A DNA stretch of 64,000 bases, from the NCBI GenBank assembly GCA_024349765.1, contig AP026073.1, positions 5,518,001-5,582,000 on the forward strand, given 5' to 3'. The stretch is from Streptomyces nigrescens. Its GTDB lineage: Bacteria; Actinomycetota; Actinomycetes; Streptomycetales; Streptomycetaceae. Both the position numbers and the translations under genes were made by a program. Shown here in pieces: positions 2,286 to 11,408 of the stretch; the stretch's first letter is position 1, and every line of letters starts with the position of its first letter. The notes beneath the pieces were generated by a model. That model did not search any database. It was given only the letters and a program-made list of their open reading frames with translations, and had not been told where the DNA came from.

Positions 2286-3038
2286 GTGACCAGGACCGAG
2301 ACCGCCGGACAGTCCGGCAACGATTCCACCAGCCCGTTCCGGCCCGACGAGAGCGACCGGGACGCGGCCTTGCAGTTCGTGCTGCCGCTCGTCGTTCGGC
2401 TGGAGCGGGCCGATCCCCCGGCGCGTACGGACGCGCTGGAGACGGCGGCCCGGGCGGTGCTGGTGCTGCTGTCGGACGAGCGGTCGGCCGGGGACGGCGA
2501 GTGGGCGGCGGCGGTGCGGGACTGGCAGGACGCCAGGATCCGGAAGGTGGTGCGGCGGGCCCGCGGCGCGGAGTGGCGGCGGGCCGAGGCGCTGCCCGGG
2601 ATCACGGTCACCGGGCGCCGGGCCGAGGTGCGGGTCTATCCCCCGGTGCTGCTGGACGGCTGGCCCAAGGACCTGGTGAAGCTCCAGGTCTCCGGCACGG
2701 AGCTGGACGACCCCGAGCCGCCCGGGCCGCCCGCCGACGGCACGCCGGTGCTGTGGCTGAACCCGGCACTGGAGATGTCGGCGGGCAAGGAGATGGCGCA
2801 GGCCGGCCACGGCGCCCAGTTGGCGTGGTGGGAGCTTTCCGAGGCGGAGCGGGCGGCCTGGCGCGCGGCCGGGTTCCCGCTGGCCGTCCGCTCCGCGGAT
2901 CCCGCCCGCTGGGAGGCGCTGACCCGCAGCGGGCTGCCCGTGGTCCGCGATGCCGGGTTCACGGAGATCGCGCCGGGCTCCTGCACCGTCGTCGCGGACC
3001 ACCCGGCGCTGCGCGACGCGCTGTCGCGGGGGCGGTGA
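2286..3038 (+). CDS. PTH2-like (Bit1-type peptidyl-tRNA hydrolase) protein
   Basis: 250 residues from GTG at 2286. The C-terminal part carries the PTH2-type signature: GK and AQ within MSAGKEMAQAGHGAQLA (residues 164-180), preceded by a hydrophobic strand (VLWLNPALE). PTH2 enzymes release peptides from peptidyl-tRNA and are small (about 120 residues). Here an extra N-terminal domain of about 150 residues of unknown role precedes the motif. The next gene (LysE exporter) starts 7 nt after the stop, so they may be co-transcribed. A strict peptidyl-tRNA hydrolase role is inferred, not shown. Confidence 0.65.
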   Translation: MTRTETAGQSGNDSTSPFRPDESDRDAALQFVLPLVVRLERADPPARTDALETAARAVLVLLSDERSAGDGEWAAAVRDWQDARIRKVVRRARGAEWRRAEALPGITVTGRRAEVRVYPPVLLDGWPKDLVKLQVSGTELDDPEPPGPPADGTPVLWLNPALEMSAGKEMAQAGHGAQLAWWELSEAERAAWRAAGFPLAVRSADPARWEALTRSGLPVVRDAGFTEIAPGSCTVVADHPALRDALSRGR

Positions 3039-3720: not shown

Positions 3721-3865
3721 CCGGCGGAAGCGGCCGGCGGATTCCCATGGGGCGGCGGGGGCCCCGGCGGGAAGCTCAAATGAAGCTCTGAACTCGGCAG
3801 GTGCAGGGTTCGGCCCGTCATGACGTGGCCATGAGTACCCCGACCACGGAGCGAGAGGGGGAACC

Positions 3866-4729
3866 ATGGTGCGTCAAGGAACGGACATCGAGCGCCTGGG
3901 GACGGGCATCGGCTGGCGGCCGGAAATCGCCGCGGAGATCGCCGGGCTACCCGGTGTGGACTGGGTCGAGGTGGTGGCGGAGAACATCTGCCCCGGCCAT
4001 CTCCCGGTCGCCCTGCGGGAGTTGCGCGAGCGCGGGACGACCGTCGTCCCGCACGGTGTCTCGCTCGGTCTCGGCGGCGCCGACCGTCCGGACGCCGGCC
4101 GGCTGGCCGCCCTCGCCGAGCGCGCCGAGGTACTGGGCGCCCCGCTGGTCACCGAGCACATCGCGTTCGTCCGGGCCGGCGGGCCGCTGACCGCCTCGCC
4201 GCTGATGGAGGCCGGGCATCTGCTGCCGGTCCCCCGCACCCGCGACGCGCTGGACGTGCTCTGCGAGAACGTCCGCATCGCCCAGGACGCCCTGCCGGTG
4301 CCGCTGGCCCTCGAGAACATCGCGGCCCTGGTCAACTGGCCGGACGAGGAGCTCACCGAGGGGCAGTTCCTGGCCGAACTGGTCGAGCGGACGGGGGTGC
4401 GGCTGCTCATCGACGTCGCCAACCTGCACACCAACCACGTCAACCGCGGTGAGGACCCGGCCGTGGCGCTGGACGAGCTGCCGGTCGAGGCGATCGCGTA
4501 CGTCCATGTGGCGGGCGGCGTGGAGCGCGACGGGGTCTGGCACGACAGCCACGCCCATCCGGTGACCCGGCCGGTGCTGGACGTGCTCGCCGAGCTGTGT
4601 GCCCGGATCACCCCGCCCGGTGTGCTGCTGGAGCGCGATGACGACTTCCCCGAGGCCGGCGAGCTGGCCGGGGAACTCGACGCGATCCGCACCGTCCTGA
4701 AGGAGGCCCGCCATGTCCAGGCGGCTTGA
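3866..4729 (+). CDS. DUF692 / MNIO family iron-dependent oxidase
   Basis: 287 residues. The family (multinuclear non-haem iron-dependent oxidases: MbnB, TglH, BufB) has a TIM-barrel and oxidises Cys or neighbouring residues in ribosomal peptides. Residues fitting the metal site are His63 (VVPHGVS), His98 (EHIAF), Glu150 (LENIAA), Asp183, Asn186 and His188 (DVANLHTN), His214 (YVHVAGG), Asp227 and His229 (HDSHAH) and Glu256 (LERDDD). The gene overlaps the next by 17 nt, and that one overlaps the third by 1 nt, so the three are translationally coupled. The likely substrate is the Cys-rich tail of the membrane protein at 5243-6286. The family assignment is firm; the chemistry and substrate are inference. 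Confidence 0.9.
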
Positions 4730-5243
4730 GCCCGTACGGGAGCCGGGCACCGGCTCCCGCTCCGCCGTGGCCCCCACCGCCTCGGCCCCCGCCATCCCCG
4801 CCACCGGCACCGACGCGGCGCGGCAGCGGCTGGCGCTGGCGCAGACCGCGCTGCTCTCCGCGCTGGTCGCCGGCACCCCGGCGCCCGAGGGCTTCGACCG
4901 CACCCGGCTGGGCGTGCAGAGCCGGGCGCTGACCGCCAAGCGGTCCGCGGTGGTCGCCAAGGTCGCGCCCGAACTACCCGAGATCCTCGGCGACGACTAC
5001 CGCCCGGCGTTCGCCGGCTATGCCCGCAACCGGCCGATGCGCGGCGGCTACCGCCAGGACGCACTGGACTTCGCGGCGCACCTGCTGGCCCAGGGCCGCC
5101 CCGCGGACCCCGCCGCCCGGCAGCGGCTGACCCGCTGGTGGCGGGACCGCGCGGGCCCCACCCCGCCGTCCGCCGGGCCCGCGGCCCGGCTCGCCCGCGC
5201 CGTCCACGCCGTCCGCCAGGCGCTGAAGGGAAGGTGGCGGTGA
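4713..5243 (+). CDS. MNIO partner protein (DUF2063/SCO6045-like)
   Basis: 176 residues, starting inside the end of the DUF692 gene. After a Pro/Ala-rich N-terminus (about 35 residues), a helical domain runs from about residue 38 to 135, with the pattern [19 protein letters not shown] (residues 90-108) and ALDFAAHLL. This resembles the DUF2063-type partners encoded next to MNIO enzymes (MbnC-like), which help bind the substrate peptide. It ends in a basic Arg-rich tail. The position between enzyme and candidate substrate supports a recognition role. The fold match is by eye and should be tested by profile search. Confidence 0.65.
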
Positions 5244-6286
5244 TGTCCTTCACGCAAGCGGTGTACGTGGGCCTCGGTGCCTCCTCGCTGGTACTGCTGC
5301 TCGGCACGGTCCTGGTGCGGCGCGGCACCCCGTCCGTCCGCAGGGGCGAGGCGCAGGCCCGCAACGTGTGGGAGATGGCGTTCCTCGCCGGCGGCCCCGG
5401 GCGGGTGGTGGACGCCGCGCTCGCCGGGATGTGCGAGGACGGCCGGCTGGCGGTGGGCGGCCCGGGCGTGGTGACCGTCCGCCAGGCCACCGCACAGCAC
5501 GCGGTCGAGTCCGCCGTCCTGGACGCGGTCGCGCGGACGCCCGGCGGGGCGCTGGCCGCGGTGCGCGCCGAGGCGATGCGCAGCCCCGCGGTCCAGGGCG
5601 TCGGCGACCGGCTGGCGGCCCGCGGGCTGATGCGCCATCCGCGGCGGGGCCAGGGCTGGCGCCAGTTCGCGGGCGCCCAGCGGGCCGTGTGCGTGGCGCT
5701 GTTCGTCCTCGGGGTGCTGCTCTCGATCGCGGACGCCGGCCCTGACGACGGTGTCGACGAGGGGTTCGGCCCACCGGTGGTGATCACGATCATGCCCGCG
5801 CTGATCGGCGGTCTGATCGTGGCCTCGCTGTGCCGGAGGGTCTTCCGGAACCGCGTCACCAAGGCGGGCGCCCTCGCGGTGCGCTCCGCGCGGGCCACCC
5901 ACGCCCAGGGCGGCACGGGCGACGCATGGCAGGCCGCCGGGCTGGTGGTGGCGCTCGGCGGTACGGCGCTGATAGCGGACGAACTGCTGCGCCAGCAGTT
6001 CGAGGAGGCCCAGCGGGCCACCGCACTGGCCACCGCCGGCGGCTCGTCGTCGTCCGGCAGCGCGTCGTCCGGCTATGACTCCGGGGGCGGCGCGGGCGGC
6101 GACAGCTCCTTCTGGTGCGGCTCGTCCGACGGCGGCTCCGGTTCGTCCTGCGGCTCCGGTTCGTCCTGCGGCGGCTCGTCCTGCGGCTCCGGTTCGTCGT
6201 GCGGCGGCGGTTCGAGTTGCGGGGGCGGGTCCTCGTGCGGCGGCGGCTCGTCCTGCGGCGGGGGCTCCGGCTGCGGAAGCAGCTGA
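5243..6286 (+). CDS. TIGR04222-type membrane protein with Ser/Gly/Cys repeat tail (candidate MNIO substrate)
   Basis: 347 residues from ATG 5243, which shares its A with the TGA of the partner gene. Hydrophobic segments lie at about residues 5-25, 147-165 and 178-197, with a weaker one at 228-246. The first cytoplasm-sized domain (about 40-145) carries WEMAFLAGGPGRVVDAAL, matching the second protein at 6516. From about residue 267 the chain is nearly all Ser, Gly and Cys. Nine Cys occur at 292, 303, 309, 314, 320, 326, 332, 338 and 344, mostly as SSCGGG hexads, and the protein ends there. I recall that this domain family is often found beside DUF692 genes and before low-complexity Cys tails. 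The tail as a modified, membrane-anchored peptide is inference. Confidence 0.85.
   Translation: MSFTQAVYVGLGASSLVLLLGTVLVRRGTPSVRRGEAQARNVWEMAFLAGGPGRVVDAALAGMCEDGRLAVGGPGVVTVRQATAQHAVESAVLDAVARTPGGALAAVRAEAMRSPAVQGVGDRLAARGLMRHPRRGQGWRQFAGAQRAVCVALFVLGVLLSIADAGPDDGVDEGFGPPVVITIMPALIGGLIVASLCRRVFRNRVTKAGALAVRSARATHAQGGTGDAWQAAGLVVALGGTALIADELLRQQFEEAQRATALATAGGSSSSGSASSGYDSGGGAGGDSSFWCGSSDGGSGSSCGSGSSCGGSSCGSGSSCGGGSSCGGGSSCGGGSSCGGGSGCGSS
6111..6283 (+). repeat. In-frame 18-bp repeats encoding the SSCGGG tail
   Basis: Degenerate 18-nt units (Ser-Ser-Cys-Gly-Gly-Gly) repeat through the 3' end of the membrane protein gene. Synonymous codons vary between units (tcc/tcg/agt, ggc/ggg/ggt), so the peptide repeat is better conserved than the DNA. 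This suggests selection on the protein. The last Cys is followed only by Gly-Ser-Ser and the stop. Confidence 0.75.
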
Positions 6287-6452
6287 GCGACGGCGGCGCA
6301 GGGGGCGCCTCCCCGATCGGACCGGCTCCGGGAGCCGACCACGGCCGGCAGGCCCTACGGCCGGCAGGCTCCTGCGCCCGGGAAGGCCCCTACGCCCGAA
6401 GCTGTCCGGTTTGCGGGCCGCACCGGCCCTGATCAGGGACGGGAGCACGTGA

Positions 6453-6518
6453 TGTGGTCCACACAAGGGGAAAATTAATGGCCATTGTCATGGACCTTCC
6501 CGTAGAAAATGGTCCATG
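6453..6518 (+). promoter_or_regulatory. Inverted repeats and strong RBS upstream of and over the start of the second TIGR04222 gene
   Basis: CATGGACC (6489-6496) and GGTCCATG (6511-6518) form a perfect 8-bp inverted repeat with a 14-nt loop. The right arm contains the ATG start at 6516. A related TGTGGTCCACA lies at 6453-6463. Between them AAGGGG (6465-6470) sits 7 nt before an out-of-frame ATG at 6478. That ATG opens a 67-residue frame beginning MAIVMDLPVENGP which overlaps the gene. The sites could be operators, or a hairpin controlling start-codon access. Confidence 0.4.
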
Positions 6519-7334
6519 TGGCTCCTCTTCCTCCTCGTCGCCGCGGTCGCGGCGGTGTTCTCCTGTGCGCGGGTGTGCCGGGCCGCGGTCGCCGCGGCCC
6601 GGACCGGACGGCCGGCCCGGCCGCCGGCCCCCGCTCCGGCCCCGGACCCGGCCGGTGACGACGGGCACGCGCCCGGACTGACCCTCTACGAGATGGCCTA
6701 CCTGTCCGGCGGGCCGCAGCGGCTCGCCGACGTGGTGCTGGTGCTGATGGCCCAGAAGCGGCGGCTGCTGCTCGCCCACACCGGCTGGGCCACCGTCGTC
6801 GAGCCGGTCGCGCAGGACCCGGTCGAGCGGGCGACACTCAGCGCGATAGGCCCGGACGGACAGCGCCCGATACCCGCGGTGCGGGAGGCCCTGGTGGCCG
6901 ACGAGGCGGTGCGGGCGGTGGCCGACAAGCTGGTGGCCGACGGGCTGGCGCTGCCGGCCGCGGCCCGCCCCGGCATCCGCAGCGGGATCCGCCAGGTGTG
7001 GGCCGCCGCCCTCCTGGTCGTACTGACCGCCGCCGCGGCCTACTGGATGGCGCCGCCCGGCACGGACACCGCGCTGCTCCTGGGGTGGTTCTCGCTGCCG
7101 CTGGTGCTCTGCCTCGGGACCCTGGCCGTGGCCCGCTTCGAGCTCCACCCGTACCGGGACTGGGCCACCGACGAGGGCGAACAGCGCCTTCCGGGGAAGG
7201 CCGATCCGCCCGGCTCACGGCTCCCCTCCGCCCCTCTGGCACCCCTCACCTCCCTCATCTCCCTCGCCCTGCACGGCCCCAGCGCCCTCACCGATCCCGC
7301 CCTTCGCGCCGCGCTCCACTCTTCCGGGGCATAG
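6516..7334 (+). CDS. Second TIGR04222-type membrane protein without Cys tail
   Basis: 272 residues from ATG 6516. An N-terminal membrane helix (1-20) is followed by a Pro-rich linker and then LYEMAYLSGGPQRLADVVL (about residues 57-75), which aligns with the matching motif of the 5243 gene product. Two further helices follow at about 168-186 and 190-210, then a soluble C-terminus rich in Pro, Ser and Leu with no Cys repeat. It is a paralogue of the tailed protein and may be its membrane partner. It lies 229 nt downstream and lacks a clear Shine-Dalgarno, the only strong one serving an overlapping frame. Function unknown. Confidence 0.75.
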   Translation: MWLLFLLVAAVAAVFSCARVCRAAVAAARTGRPARPPAPAPAPDPAGDDGHAPGLTLYEMAYLSGGPQRLADVVLVLMAQKRRLLLAHTGWATVVEPVAQDPVERATLSAIGPDGQRPIPAVREALVADEAVRAVADKLVADGLALPAAARPGIRSGIRQVWAAALLVVLTAAAAYWMAPPGTDTALLLGWFSLPLVLCLGTLAVARFELHPYRDWATDEGEQRLPGKADPPGSRLPSAPLAPLTSLISLALHGPSALTDPALRAALHSSGA

Positions 7335-9168: not shown

Positions 9169-9930
9169 TCAGGCCAGCCCGGCGACCAGCTCGGCGACCG
9201 CCTTGCGACGGCCGGTGTAGAACGGGACCTCCTCGCGGACGTGCATCCGCGCCTCGGAGCCGCGCAGATGACGCATCAGGTCGACGATGCGGTAGAGCTC
9301 GTCGGCCTCGAAGGCGAGCACCCACTCGTAGTCACCGAGCGAGAACGACGGCACGGTGTTGGCGCGGACGTCCGGGAAGCCGCGGGCCATCTTGCCGTGG
9401 TCGGCGAGCATCCGGCGGCGGTCCTCGTCGGGGAGGAGGTACCACTCGTAGGAGCGCACGAAGGGGTAGACGCTCACATAGGCGCGCGGCCGCTCGTCGG
9501 CCAGGAAGGCCGGGATGTGCGACTTGTTGAACTCGGCGGGGCGGTGCAGCGCCATGTTGGACCACACCGGGTCGAGCGCGCGGCCGAGCCGGGTGCGGCG
9601 GAAGAGGTTGTAGGCGTCCTGGAGGGCGTCCGAGCTCTCCGAGTGCCACCAGATCATGACGTCGGCGTCGGCGCGCAGGCCGGAGACGTCGTAGGTGCCG
9701 CGGACCACCACGTCCTTGGCGGCGAGCTGCGCGAACAGCTCCTCGACCTCGTCGGCGTAGCCGGTGCGGTCCTCGGGGAGGACGTCGCGCAGCTTGAACA
9801 CCGACCAGAGGGTGTAGCGGATGACCTCGTTCAGGTCCTTGGCCTTCTTGCCGGCGTTCGGTGCCTTGTCGGGCTCCGCAGGGTTCTGCGGTGCGGAAGC
9901 GGGGGTGGAAGCGTCTGTCATGTCGTCCAT
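9169..9930 (-). CDS. hemQ: Coproheme decarboxylase HemQ (chlorite-dismutase-like)
   Basis: 253 residues from ATG at 9930 (an alternative ATG lies at 9921). HemQ converts Fe-coproporphyrin III to haem b by two decarboxylations, the last step of the coproporphyrin-dependent pathway of Gram-positive bacteria. Markers are the conserved start of the fold ([16 protein letters not shown]), the [16 protein letters not shown] region containing the catalytic Tyr, and [14 protein letters not shown] with the haem-ligand His. A charged, Pro/Ala-rich N-terminus of about 30 residues is typical of actinobacteria. The start lies 2 nt after the hemY stop, so the two are co-translated. Confidence 0.93.
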
Positions 9931-9932
9931 TC

Positions 9933-11408
9933 TCACTCGCCGGGGCGGCCGGCCGGCCGCAGGGTGCCGAGGATGTCCTCGGCGGCCTTGCGGGCCGAGG
10001 CGATACAGGCCGGGATGCCGACGCCGTCGTAGAGCGCACCGCACACCCGCAGGCCCGGCAGCCGCCCGACGGCCTCCCGGATGCGGGCCACCCGCTCCAG
10101 ATGGCCGACCGGGTACTGGGGCAGGCCGCCCTCCCAACGGGTGATCCGGGCGGCGACCGGCGCGGCGGTCAGCCCGATCGCCTCGCGCAGGTCGGCGCGG
10201 GCCAGGGCGGCCAGCTCGGCGTCCTCGCGCGCCAGGTCGGCCTCGTCGCCGTAGCGGCCGAGGGAGGTGCGCAGCACGAAGAGATCCGGGGCGGCGCGGT
10301 CGATCCAGCCCCACTTGTTGCCGGCGAAGGTGGCCGCCTTGATCCTCCGGCCGTCCACGGGCGGTACGAGGAAGCCGCTGCCGGTGGGCTGCCGCTCCAG
10401 CTCGGAGCGGCGGAAGGCCATGGTGACCAGGGCCATCGAGGCGTATTCGACGGTGGCCAGTTCGCGGGCGGCGGGCGCGCAGTCCTGGGCGAGCAGCCGG
10501 GCGGTGTCCGGCGCGGGGGTGGCCAGGACGACGGCGTCCGCGGTGAGCGCCGCGCCGTCCAGCTCGATCCGCCAGCCGTCGGCGGACCGCCGGACCCCGA
10601 CGACGGGTGTGCCCGTCCGGATCTCGCCGCCCTTCGCGCGCACGGCCTCGGCGACCGCGCCGGGCAGCGTCCCGATCCCGCCCGCGATCCCCATGAACAC
10701 CGGGGCGCCCTGGCCACCGCCGCCGGCCGCCGGGCCGATCTGGTGCATCGTGGCCGCGGCCCGGGCCTGGATGCCGCGGACGCCCTCCAGCAGCGAGCGG
10801 TGGGCCCGCGCGGCCTCGAACAGCTGCGGTACGGCGGCCCGCATGGAGATCTGGTACGCATCGCCGGCGTAGACCCCGCCCAGCAGCGGCTCCACCAGGC
10901 GGTCGACCACCTCGCGGCCCAGGCGCCGGGCGACGTACGCACCGACCGCGACGTCCGCGCCGATCTCCGTCCGGGGCAGCTCGGTGTCCTCCTCGATGCG
11001 GGCGAGGCCCTCGGGAGAGACGACACCGGAGGCGGCGAGCGGGGCGAGGTCCCCGGGGACGCCCATGACATGGCCCTTGGGCATCGGGCGCAGCGCACCG
11101 CGGGTCCATAGCGAGGCGGTGGCGGTCGTGGGCGGCTGGAGCCGGTCGCCGATCCCGACGGCGCGCGCGAGCTCCACCGCCTCCGGCCGCCTGGCCAGCA
11201 TCGATTCGGCGCCGAGGTCGACCGGGACATCCGCGATCTCACCGGCCCGCAGCTTGCCGCCGAGCCGGTCCGACGCCTCCAGGACGGTCACCCTGGCGCC
11301 GCCCTCGAGCAGCCGGTGGGCGGCGGCCAGTCCGGAGATGCCGCCGCCGATGACGACGACATGCCCGCCGCCGCTCCCGGAGGCCGTACTCGTGTGCGCT
11401 GCGCTCAT
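9933..11408 (-). CDS. hemY: Coproporphyrinogen III oxidase (HemY/HemG, CgoX)
   Basis: 491 residues. The N-terminal FAD-binding Rossmann motif [17 protein letters not shown] (about 17-33) is followed by [12 protein letters not shown], and a C-terminal FAD motif [15 protein letters not shown] (about 451-465) closes the fold. It removes six electrons from coproporphyrinogen III to give coproporphyrin III before iron insertion. Directly upstream of hemQ on the same strand; hemE lies 4 kb away in the same direction. The ATG at 11408 is preceded by GAGAGTGGAGCC. Confidence 0.93.

Follow-up and report, generated by a model that had tools for sequence, protein, structure and literature searches.

A near-core Streptomyces MNIO and the cysteine-tailed TIGR04222 membrane protein that may be its substrate

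The MNIO systems TglHI and MbnBC have short peptides as their substrates. In the bufferins (Buf1, Buf2), an MNIO (BufB) and a helical partner (BufC) act on Cys residues; the precursors are small and carry a Sec signal peptide, and the partner is a DUF2063-RRE protein. Closest to the present case are the clusters of Antoine et al. (2025; PMC12452194): the portion of that paper considered here describes more than 3500 TIGR04222 proteins, mostly from Actinomycetota, many of which have Ser/Gly/Cys C-terminal tails and are often encoded beside MNIO genes. It proposes these Cys tails, predicted to be periplasmic, as MNIO substrates, names PME-type 2 partners together with a PTH2-like 'adjamnio-II' in the order adjamnio-II - MNIO - TIGR04222, and reports that the thiooxazoles of Buf1 chelate copper. 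We found no experiment on the TIGR04222-tail/MNIO proposal in the open-licence literature. Here we analyse a locus of this kind in a 64,000-nt stretch of DNA from Streptomyces nigrescens, hereafter the window, in which genes for an MNIO, its partner and a Cys-tailed TIGR04222 protein overlap.

The features of the locus are as follows; coordinates are positions in the window, and residue numbers are those of the tailed protein unless the MNIO is named.

2286..3038, plus strand: PTH2-like protein (PF01981, E 1.7e-8)
3772..3792, plus strand: conserved AASCTCAAATNNNNCTCTGAA element that precedes the MNIO gene and resembles an operator or promoter
3866..4729, plus strand: MNIO (DUF692 oxidase), 287 residues (PF05114, E 1.5e-79)
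4713..5243, plus strand: MNIO partner, 176 residues (AlphaFold fold ranking; weak DUF2063 matches in relatives)
5243..6286, plus strand: TIGR04222 membrane protein with Cys tail, 347 residues, three predicted transmembrane helices (TIGR04222, E 2.2e-35)
5357..5638, plus strand: first half of the globular domain (residues 39-132), predicted cytoplasmic
5852..6016, plus strand: second half of the globular domain (residues 204-258), after the third transmembrane helix and presumably on the same side
6041..6283, plus strand: Ser/Gly/Cys tail of 81 residues, nine of them Cys; probably an MNIO substrate
6516..7334, plus strand: tail-less TIGR04222 paralogue, 272 residues (TIGR04222, E 1.1e-30)

The original prediction, made from the sequence alone, had reported the order MNIO, partner, TIGR04222 protein and a downstream paralogue without the tail, and both were recovered on recomputation. 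The MNIO and partner genes overlap by 17 nt, and the TGA of the partner and the ATG of the tailed gene have one base (5243) in common. A profile search of the genome found one MNIO and two TIGR04222 genes, all at this locus, the tailed protein and the paralogue scoring 122.4 and 107 bits against a curated cut-off of 43 for TIGR04222 (near_uncomplex).

Like the clusters in the portion of PMC12452194 considered here, the locus combines an MNIO, a PME-type 2 partner and a Cys-tailed TIGR04222 membrane protein, with the PTH2 order. Unlike them, it has the MNIO first, fused to its partner in most members of the genus, and a tail predicted to be cytoplasmic rather than periplasmic; it further adds a common upstream element and relatives in trans that lack transmembrane helices. 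The core idea, that the tail is an MNIO substrate, is already published there as a proposal. As far as the literature searches go, the near-core status with a fused partner, the cytoplasmic tail, the tail-less clade, and the common element with TIGR04222 relatives in trans appear to be new relative to that portion. The locus resembles the bufferins in pairing an MNIO with a helical partner for which action on Cys is proposed. The tailed protein, however, does not look like a short precursor with a Sec signal peptide: it has 347 residues, three transmembrane helices and an N-out charge pattern at the first helix, and its short partner falls below the DUF2063 cut-off. MNIO homology and partner fold are shared with TglHI and MbnBC, whereas the putative substrate here is a protein tail.

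We propose that the MNIO and its partner oxidise the tail cysteines in the cytoplasm. The product would be an array of modified Cys, tethered to the membrane and facing inward, with a soft metal as its most likely ligand; taken whole, we regard this reading as evenly balanced. That the tail cysteines are modified is likely. The identification of the product as a thiooxazole or similar heterocycle, by analogy with known systems, is tentative, and metal binding by the modified tail is plausible rather than probable.

The identity of the enzyme is clear. The MNIO scores 267.4 bits against PF05114 (curated cut-off 25), aligns with the solved relatives 8hci_D (TglH), 3bww and MbnB, and among the NCBIfam MNIO models is best matched by BufB (183 bits, below the cut-off of 310). 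Its residues H63, E97, H98, E150, N151, D183, H214, H226, D227, H229, H231 and E256 are invariant in 94 of 94 aligned sequences, an alignment that left out three distant MNIOs; this set includes the residues that we take to bind iron. The AlphaFold model of the partner has a mean predicted local distance difference test score (pLDDT) of 87.9, and when its fold was ranked against 528 PDB chains the top three were 8hi7_A, 8hci_A (TglI) and 7dz9_C (MbnC), supporting a TglI/MbnC-like MNIO partner at the level of a predicted structure. The partner has no Pfam match over the cut-off for DUF2063 and so is not of the DUF2063-RRE type (PME-type 1); DUF2063 matches at E<=0.1 occur in 14 of 55 relatives (best 4e-4). 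Its predicted TglI/MbnC/DUF2063-like fold without a Pfam DUF2063 match places it in PME-type 2. The predicted pairing of an MNIO with a partner protein is thus borne out by profile match, predicted fold and invariant catalytic positions.

The MNIO is near-universal in Streptomyces: it was found in 141 of 150 genomes and shares one open frame with the partner in 84 of 93 genus loci, the two being separate genes in the window. TIGR04222 was found in at least 131 of the same 150 genomes, in at least 36 of 198 in a phylum sample (8 over the cut-off; MNIO 12/198) and in at least 100 of 296 in a class sample (74 over the cut-off; MNIO 66/296), these TIGR04222 counts being lower bounds, as scoring covered part of the first-look candidates. 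All 80 named relatives that were retained are from Streptomyces. Some genus genomes (L045-L047) encode a second, different type of MNIO, scoring about 358-371 bits against PF05114.

The tail (residues 267-347) matches its original description as a stretch of roughly 80 residues with nine regularly spaced Cys. It holds 32 Gly, 32 Ser, 9 Cys and 8 other residues, and the cysteines, spaced 11, 6, 5, 6, 6, 6, 6 and 6 apart, are so regular that only 63 of 20000 random placements equal them. Each is mostly preceded by Ser or Gly and followed by Gly or Ser; in 43 of 52 genus proteins the tail opens with a Trp-Cys pair. Six-frame translation of 100 neighbourhoods gave 75613 windows of 60 residues; 34 of these, lying in 33 open reading frames (ORFs), reached at least 80% S/G/C with at least 6 Cys. 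Because all 33 ORFs are tailed TIGR04222 genes, the tail is no chance reading frame.

Cys tails are associated with MNIO across the class. Outside the genus we considered the class-sample TIGR04222 places over the cut-off, minus G426 and plus two below it, which gave 59 usable regions and 62 TIGR04222 ORFs (54 recognised by profile and 8 by coordinates). We called a Cys tail when the last 40 residues were at least 60% G/S/C/D with at least 2 Cys. By this rule, 26 of 28 ORFs beside an MNIO have a Cys tail, as against 4 of 12 whose genome has its MNIO at a different place and 1 of 22 where no MNIO was found. A looser first rule gave tails in 20 of 23 ORFs beside an MNIO and 10 of 31 not beside one. 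For MNIO-adjacent ORFs against those with none, in the 54-ORF set, Fisher's test gave p 5e-9 with kinship ignored; a tree-aware comparison left 4 independent pairs on well-supported branches, on average 3.6 in the same direction and 0.1 in the opposite one (median p 0.125). Within Streptomyces, nine of the 150 sampled genomes lack an MNIO; three of these have a TIGR04222 gene, tail-less in two (L191, L192). Cys-tailed homologues occurring regularly without a DUF692 gene, a pattern that the original prediction had named as speaking against it, were therefore mostly not seen, being limited to the single ORF outside the genus by the stricter rule and one Streptomyces genome, both discussed below. 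As a separate observation, Gly tails of TIGR04222 proteins not beside an MNIO often carry Asp, at similar spacing, in the positions that Cys takes in MNIO-linked tails (L324, L337, L353, L357, L360 and others).

Several findings weigh against the tail as substrate. First, a Cys tail accompanies the MNIO in 51 of 93 genus loci and is absent from 42, of which two (L134, L199) lie on contigs that end within about 1.6 kb of the MNIO. A single group of 40 in the MNIO phylogeny (SH-aLRT 90) takes in 39 of these 42 loci, its one tailed member being L183. Since the no-tail MNIOs retain the listed catalytic positions, the enzyme does something besides the tail, which is not its sole task. Second, tails occur without a detected MNIO. 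One such ORF outside the genus (L347) has two Cys outside the repeat and an Asp-rich end; the looser rule gave five tailed ORFs in genomes without MNIO (5/20); and one of the MNIO-less Streptomyces genomes (G293) encodes a Gly-rich end with three Cys, in an assembly of 1420 contigs in which an MNIO may be missed. Third, related tails with Asp or no Cys exist. The claim that the tail is an MNIO substrate thus stands on the identity of enzyme and partner and on the tail-MNIO association, and is incomplete where the genus loci lack the tail.

The first and third of these findings would agree with a reading in which the MNIO substrate lay elsewhere and the unmodified tail, co-expressed with the enzyme, used its free thiols to bind metal or served structurally. 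Encoded in the fetched span of 31 of 42 no-tail loci versus 18 of 51 tailed loci, a DUF4142 protein (PF13628, E 5.7e-20; the one scanned lacks Cys) is just a candidate for such an alternative substrate. The near-confinement of Cys tails to MNIO genomes argues against this explanation, and we consider it unlikely. Separately, the MNIO nearest to that of the window (91% identity; L194/L411, genome G282) lies with a partner and a seemingly damaged paralogue, and no tailed gene was found there.

Our proposal also depends on which side of the membrane the tail faces. In 52 tailed proteins of the genus, the mean number of Lys plus Arg is 0.0 before the first transmembrane helix, 3.6 after it, 3.2 before the second, 0.67 in the loop between the second and third (Asp plus Glu 1.96) and 3.75 after the third. 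The AlphaFold model of the tailed protein (pLDDT 80.5; tail mostly under 50) has three long transmembrane helices, with 232-239 forming a helix of just 8 residues. In addition, 14 relatives lack transmembrane helices: they hold no segment above 1.86 mean hydropathy, compared with 2.0-2.4 for the transmembrane helices of tailed proteins, yet the domain is kept, most with a Gly-rich end. Because the charge pattern is positive-inside for N-out/C-in, and given the model and these relatives, the tail is probably on the cytoplasmic side and not at the cell surface, where the original prediction had put it. A tentative GOLPH3 (GPP34) match of the globular domain spans 39-258 (149 residues), which would fit a single predicted domain built from 39-132 and 204-258. 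Its TIGR04222 region is likely homologous to DUF2207_C, judging from sequence profiles: TIGR04222 matches fall inside the DUF2207_C of three proteins (27-31 bits, E 2e-6 to 1e-7, below the cut-off of 43), and 15 of 95 TIGR04222 relatives match DUF2207_C (PF20990) at E<=1 (best 0.0048); the tailed protein of the window itself gave no match to PF20990, and the curated cut-off was not reached. DUF2207 membrane proteins thus appear to share a related C-terminal domain and a Gly-rich tail; they also carry a DUF2207 domain at the N terminus, and the Gly tails at the ends of the six read contained no Cys.

Alternatively, the tail could be modified in the cytoplasm and then moved across the membrane, placing the modified Cys array outside. 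The portion of PMC12452194 considered here predicts extracytoplasmic tails from transmembrane topology and from AlphaFold models of members from Micromonospora and Pirellula, and the window protein has a fourth hydrophobic stretch (231-249, mean 1.68; above 1.6 in 5 of 52 genus tails). The strong positive-inside pattern opposes this, AlphaFold splits the stretch into the 8-residue helix and a separate helix, and relatives without transmembrane helices have a similar hydrophobic stretch, which makes an outside tail improbable.

With up to 3 mismatches allowed, the 21-nt element AASCTCAAATNNNNCTCTGAA matches the window once and 100 shuffles not at all. At up to 2 mismatches, 87 of 97 MNIO loci, tailed or tail-less, have it within the fetched stretch (79 of 97 by a cruder distance test). 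It was found in 56 of 61 genus genomes, with none for a reversed control. Among the matches listed there are 83 places, of which 51 precede an MNIO by comparison of coordinates, 31 lie elsewhere and one (G224) was not placed. Of the 29 non-MNIO places examined, 12 precede a TIGR04222-like gene; six represent one locus beside a convergent gene, a glyoxylate carboligase by eye, with no TIGR04222-like gene left; the remainder comprise 4 in a related arrangement and 7 at other sites, all two-mismatch matches. At the carboligase locus (L442, L443, L446, L448, L449, L453) a conserved stretch that includes a GC-rich inverted repeat comes after the persisting element; Rfam gave no match. A profile built from five of the relatives without transmembrane helices (L378-L380 among them) matched strongly in 14 of 33 no-tail genomes (L378-L391) and in none of the nine MNIO-less genus genomes searched, so that these relatives account for only part of the no-tail genomes. 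The element stands at 11 of the 14 loci (9 of 11 excluding profile sequences; missing at L380, L381 and L388), and Cys occurs within the final 40 residues of 11 of the 14 proteins, as a single residue in nine. It looks as if MNIO and TIGR04222-like genes have a common control site. The copies of the element upstream of soluble TIGR04222 relatives in trans point to one regulon that, in many species, takes in these proteins together with the MNIO; they may be further MNIO substrates. A small ribosomally synthesised and post-translationally modified peptide (RiPP) from an unannotated short precursor, handled or sensed by the TIGR04222 proteins, would agree with the small peptides on which characterised MNIOs mostly act, according to the portion of PMC12452194 considered here, and is very improbable: the overlapping genes leave no space for a precursor between them, and no conserved short Cys ORF was seen by eye behind ten orphan elements.

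Other features of the locus recur in the genus. A PTH2-like relative lies within the fetched span of 71 of 93 MNIO loci, and tail-less proteins resembling the window paralogue adjoin the MNIO in many. Most listed tail-less paralogues (e.g. 6516-7334, L104) have in common a C-x3-C motif in the first transmembrane helix. Downstream in the window, on the opposite strand (9169-11408), are ORFs identified by eye as HemQ-like and protoporphyrinogen-oxidase-like; a heme gene seemingly also adjoins the paralogue in L408/L409.

In the mechanism that we favour, translational coupling would allow enzyme, partner and substrate to be made together. In the cytoplasm, the partner would offer the MNIO the disordered tail, and the MNIO would oxidise the tail cysteines one after another, probably to thiooxazole or a similar metal-binding heterocycle if the analogy with bufferins holds. 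The tail would be carried by the split, putatively GOLPH3/DUF2207_C-like domain held by three transmembrane helices, and the outcome would be a membrane-bound, inward-facing buffer or sensor for a soft metal such as copper. More speculatively, and in our view with the balance against it, AASCTCAAATNNNNCTCTGAA may mark a near-core Streptomyces regulon in which one MNIO-partner pair modifies Cys in the Gly-rich tails of cytoplasmic-side GOLPH3-like proteins, membrane-bound and multi-Cys in cis, soluble and often single-Cys in trans.

Should the proposal hold, MNIOs would act on full-size proteins in situ, and nearly all Streptomyces would make the product, not just the holders of a rare cluster. 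A tail that faces inward would also avoid the difficulty of a membrane protein having to be modified prior to export. The common element offers a route to the regulator and to substrates in trans, and the tail-less clade serves as a natural experiment on the other role of the MNIO. Were the wider regulon real, the MNIO would modify proteins, not RiPP peptides, in basic physiology, perhaps in intracellular metal buffering at the membrane.

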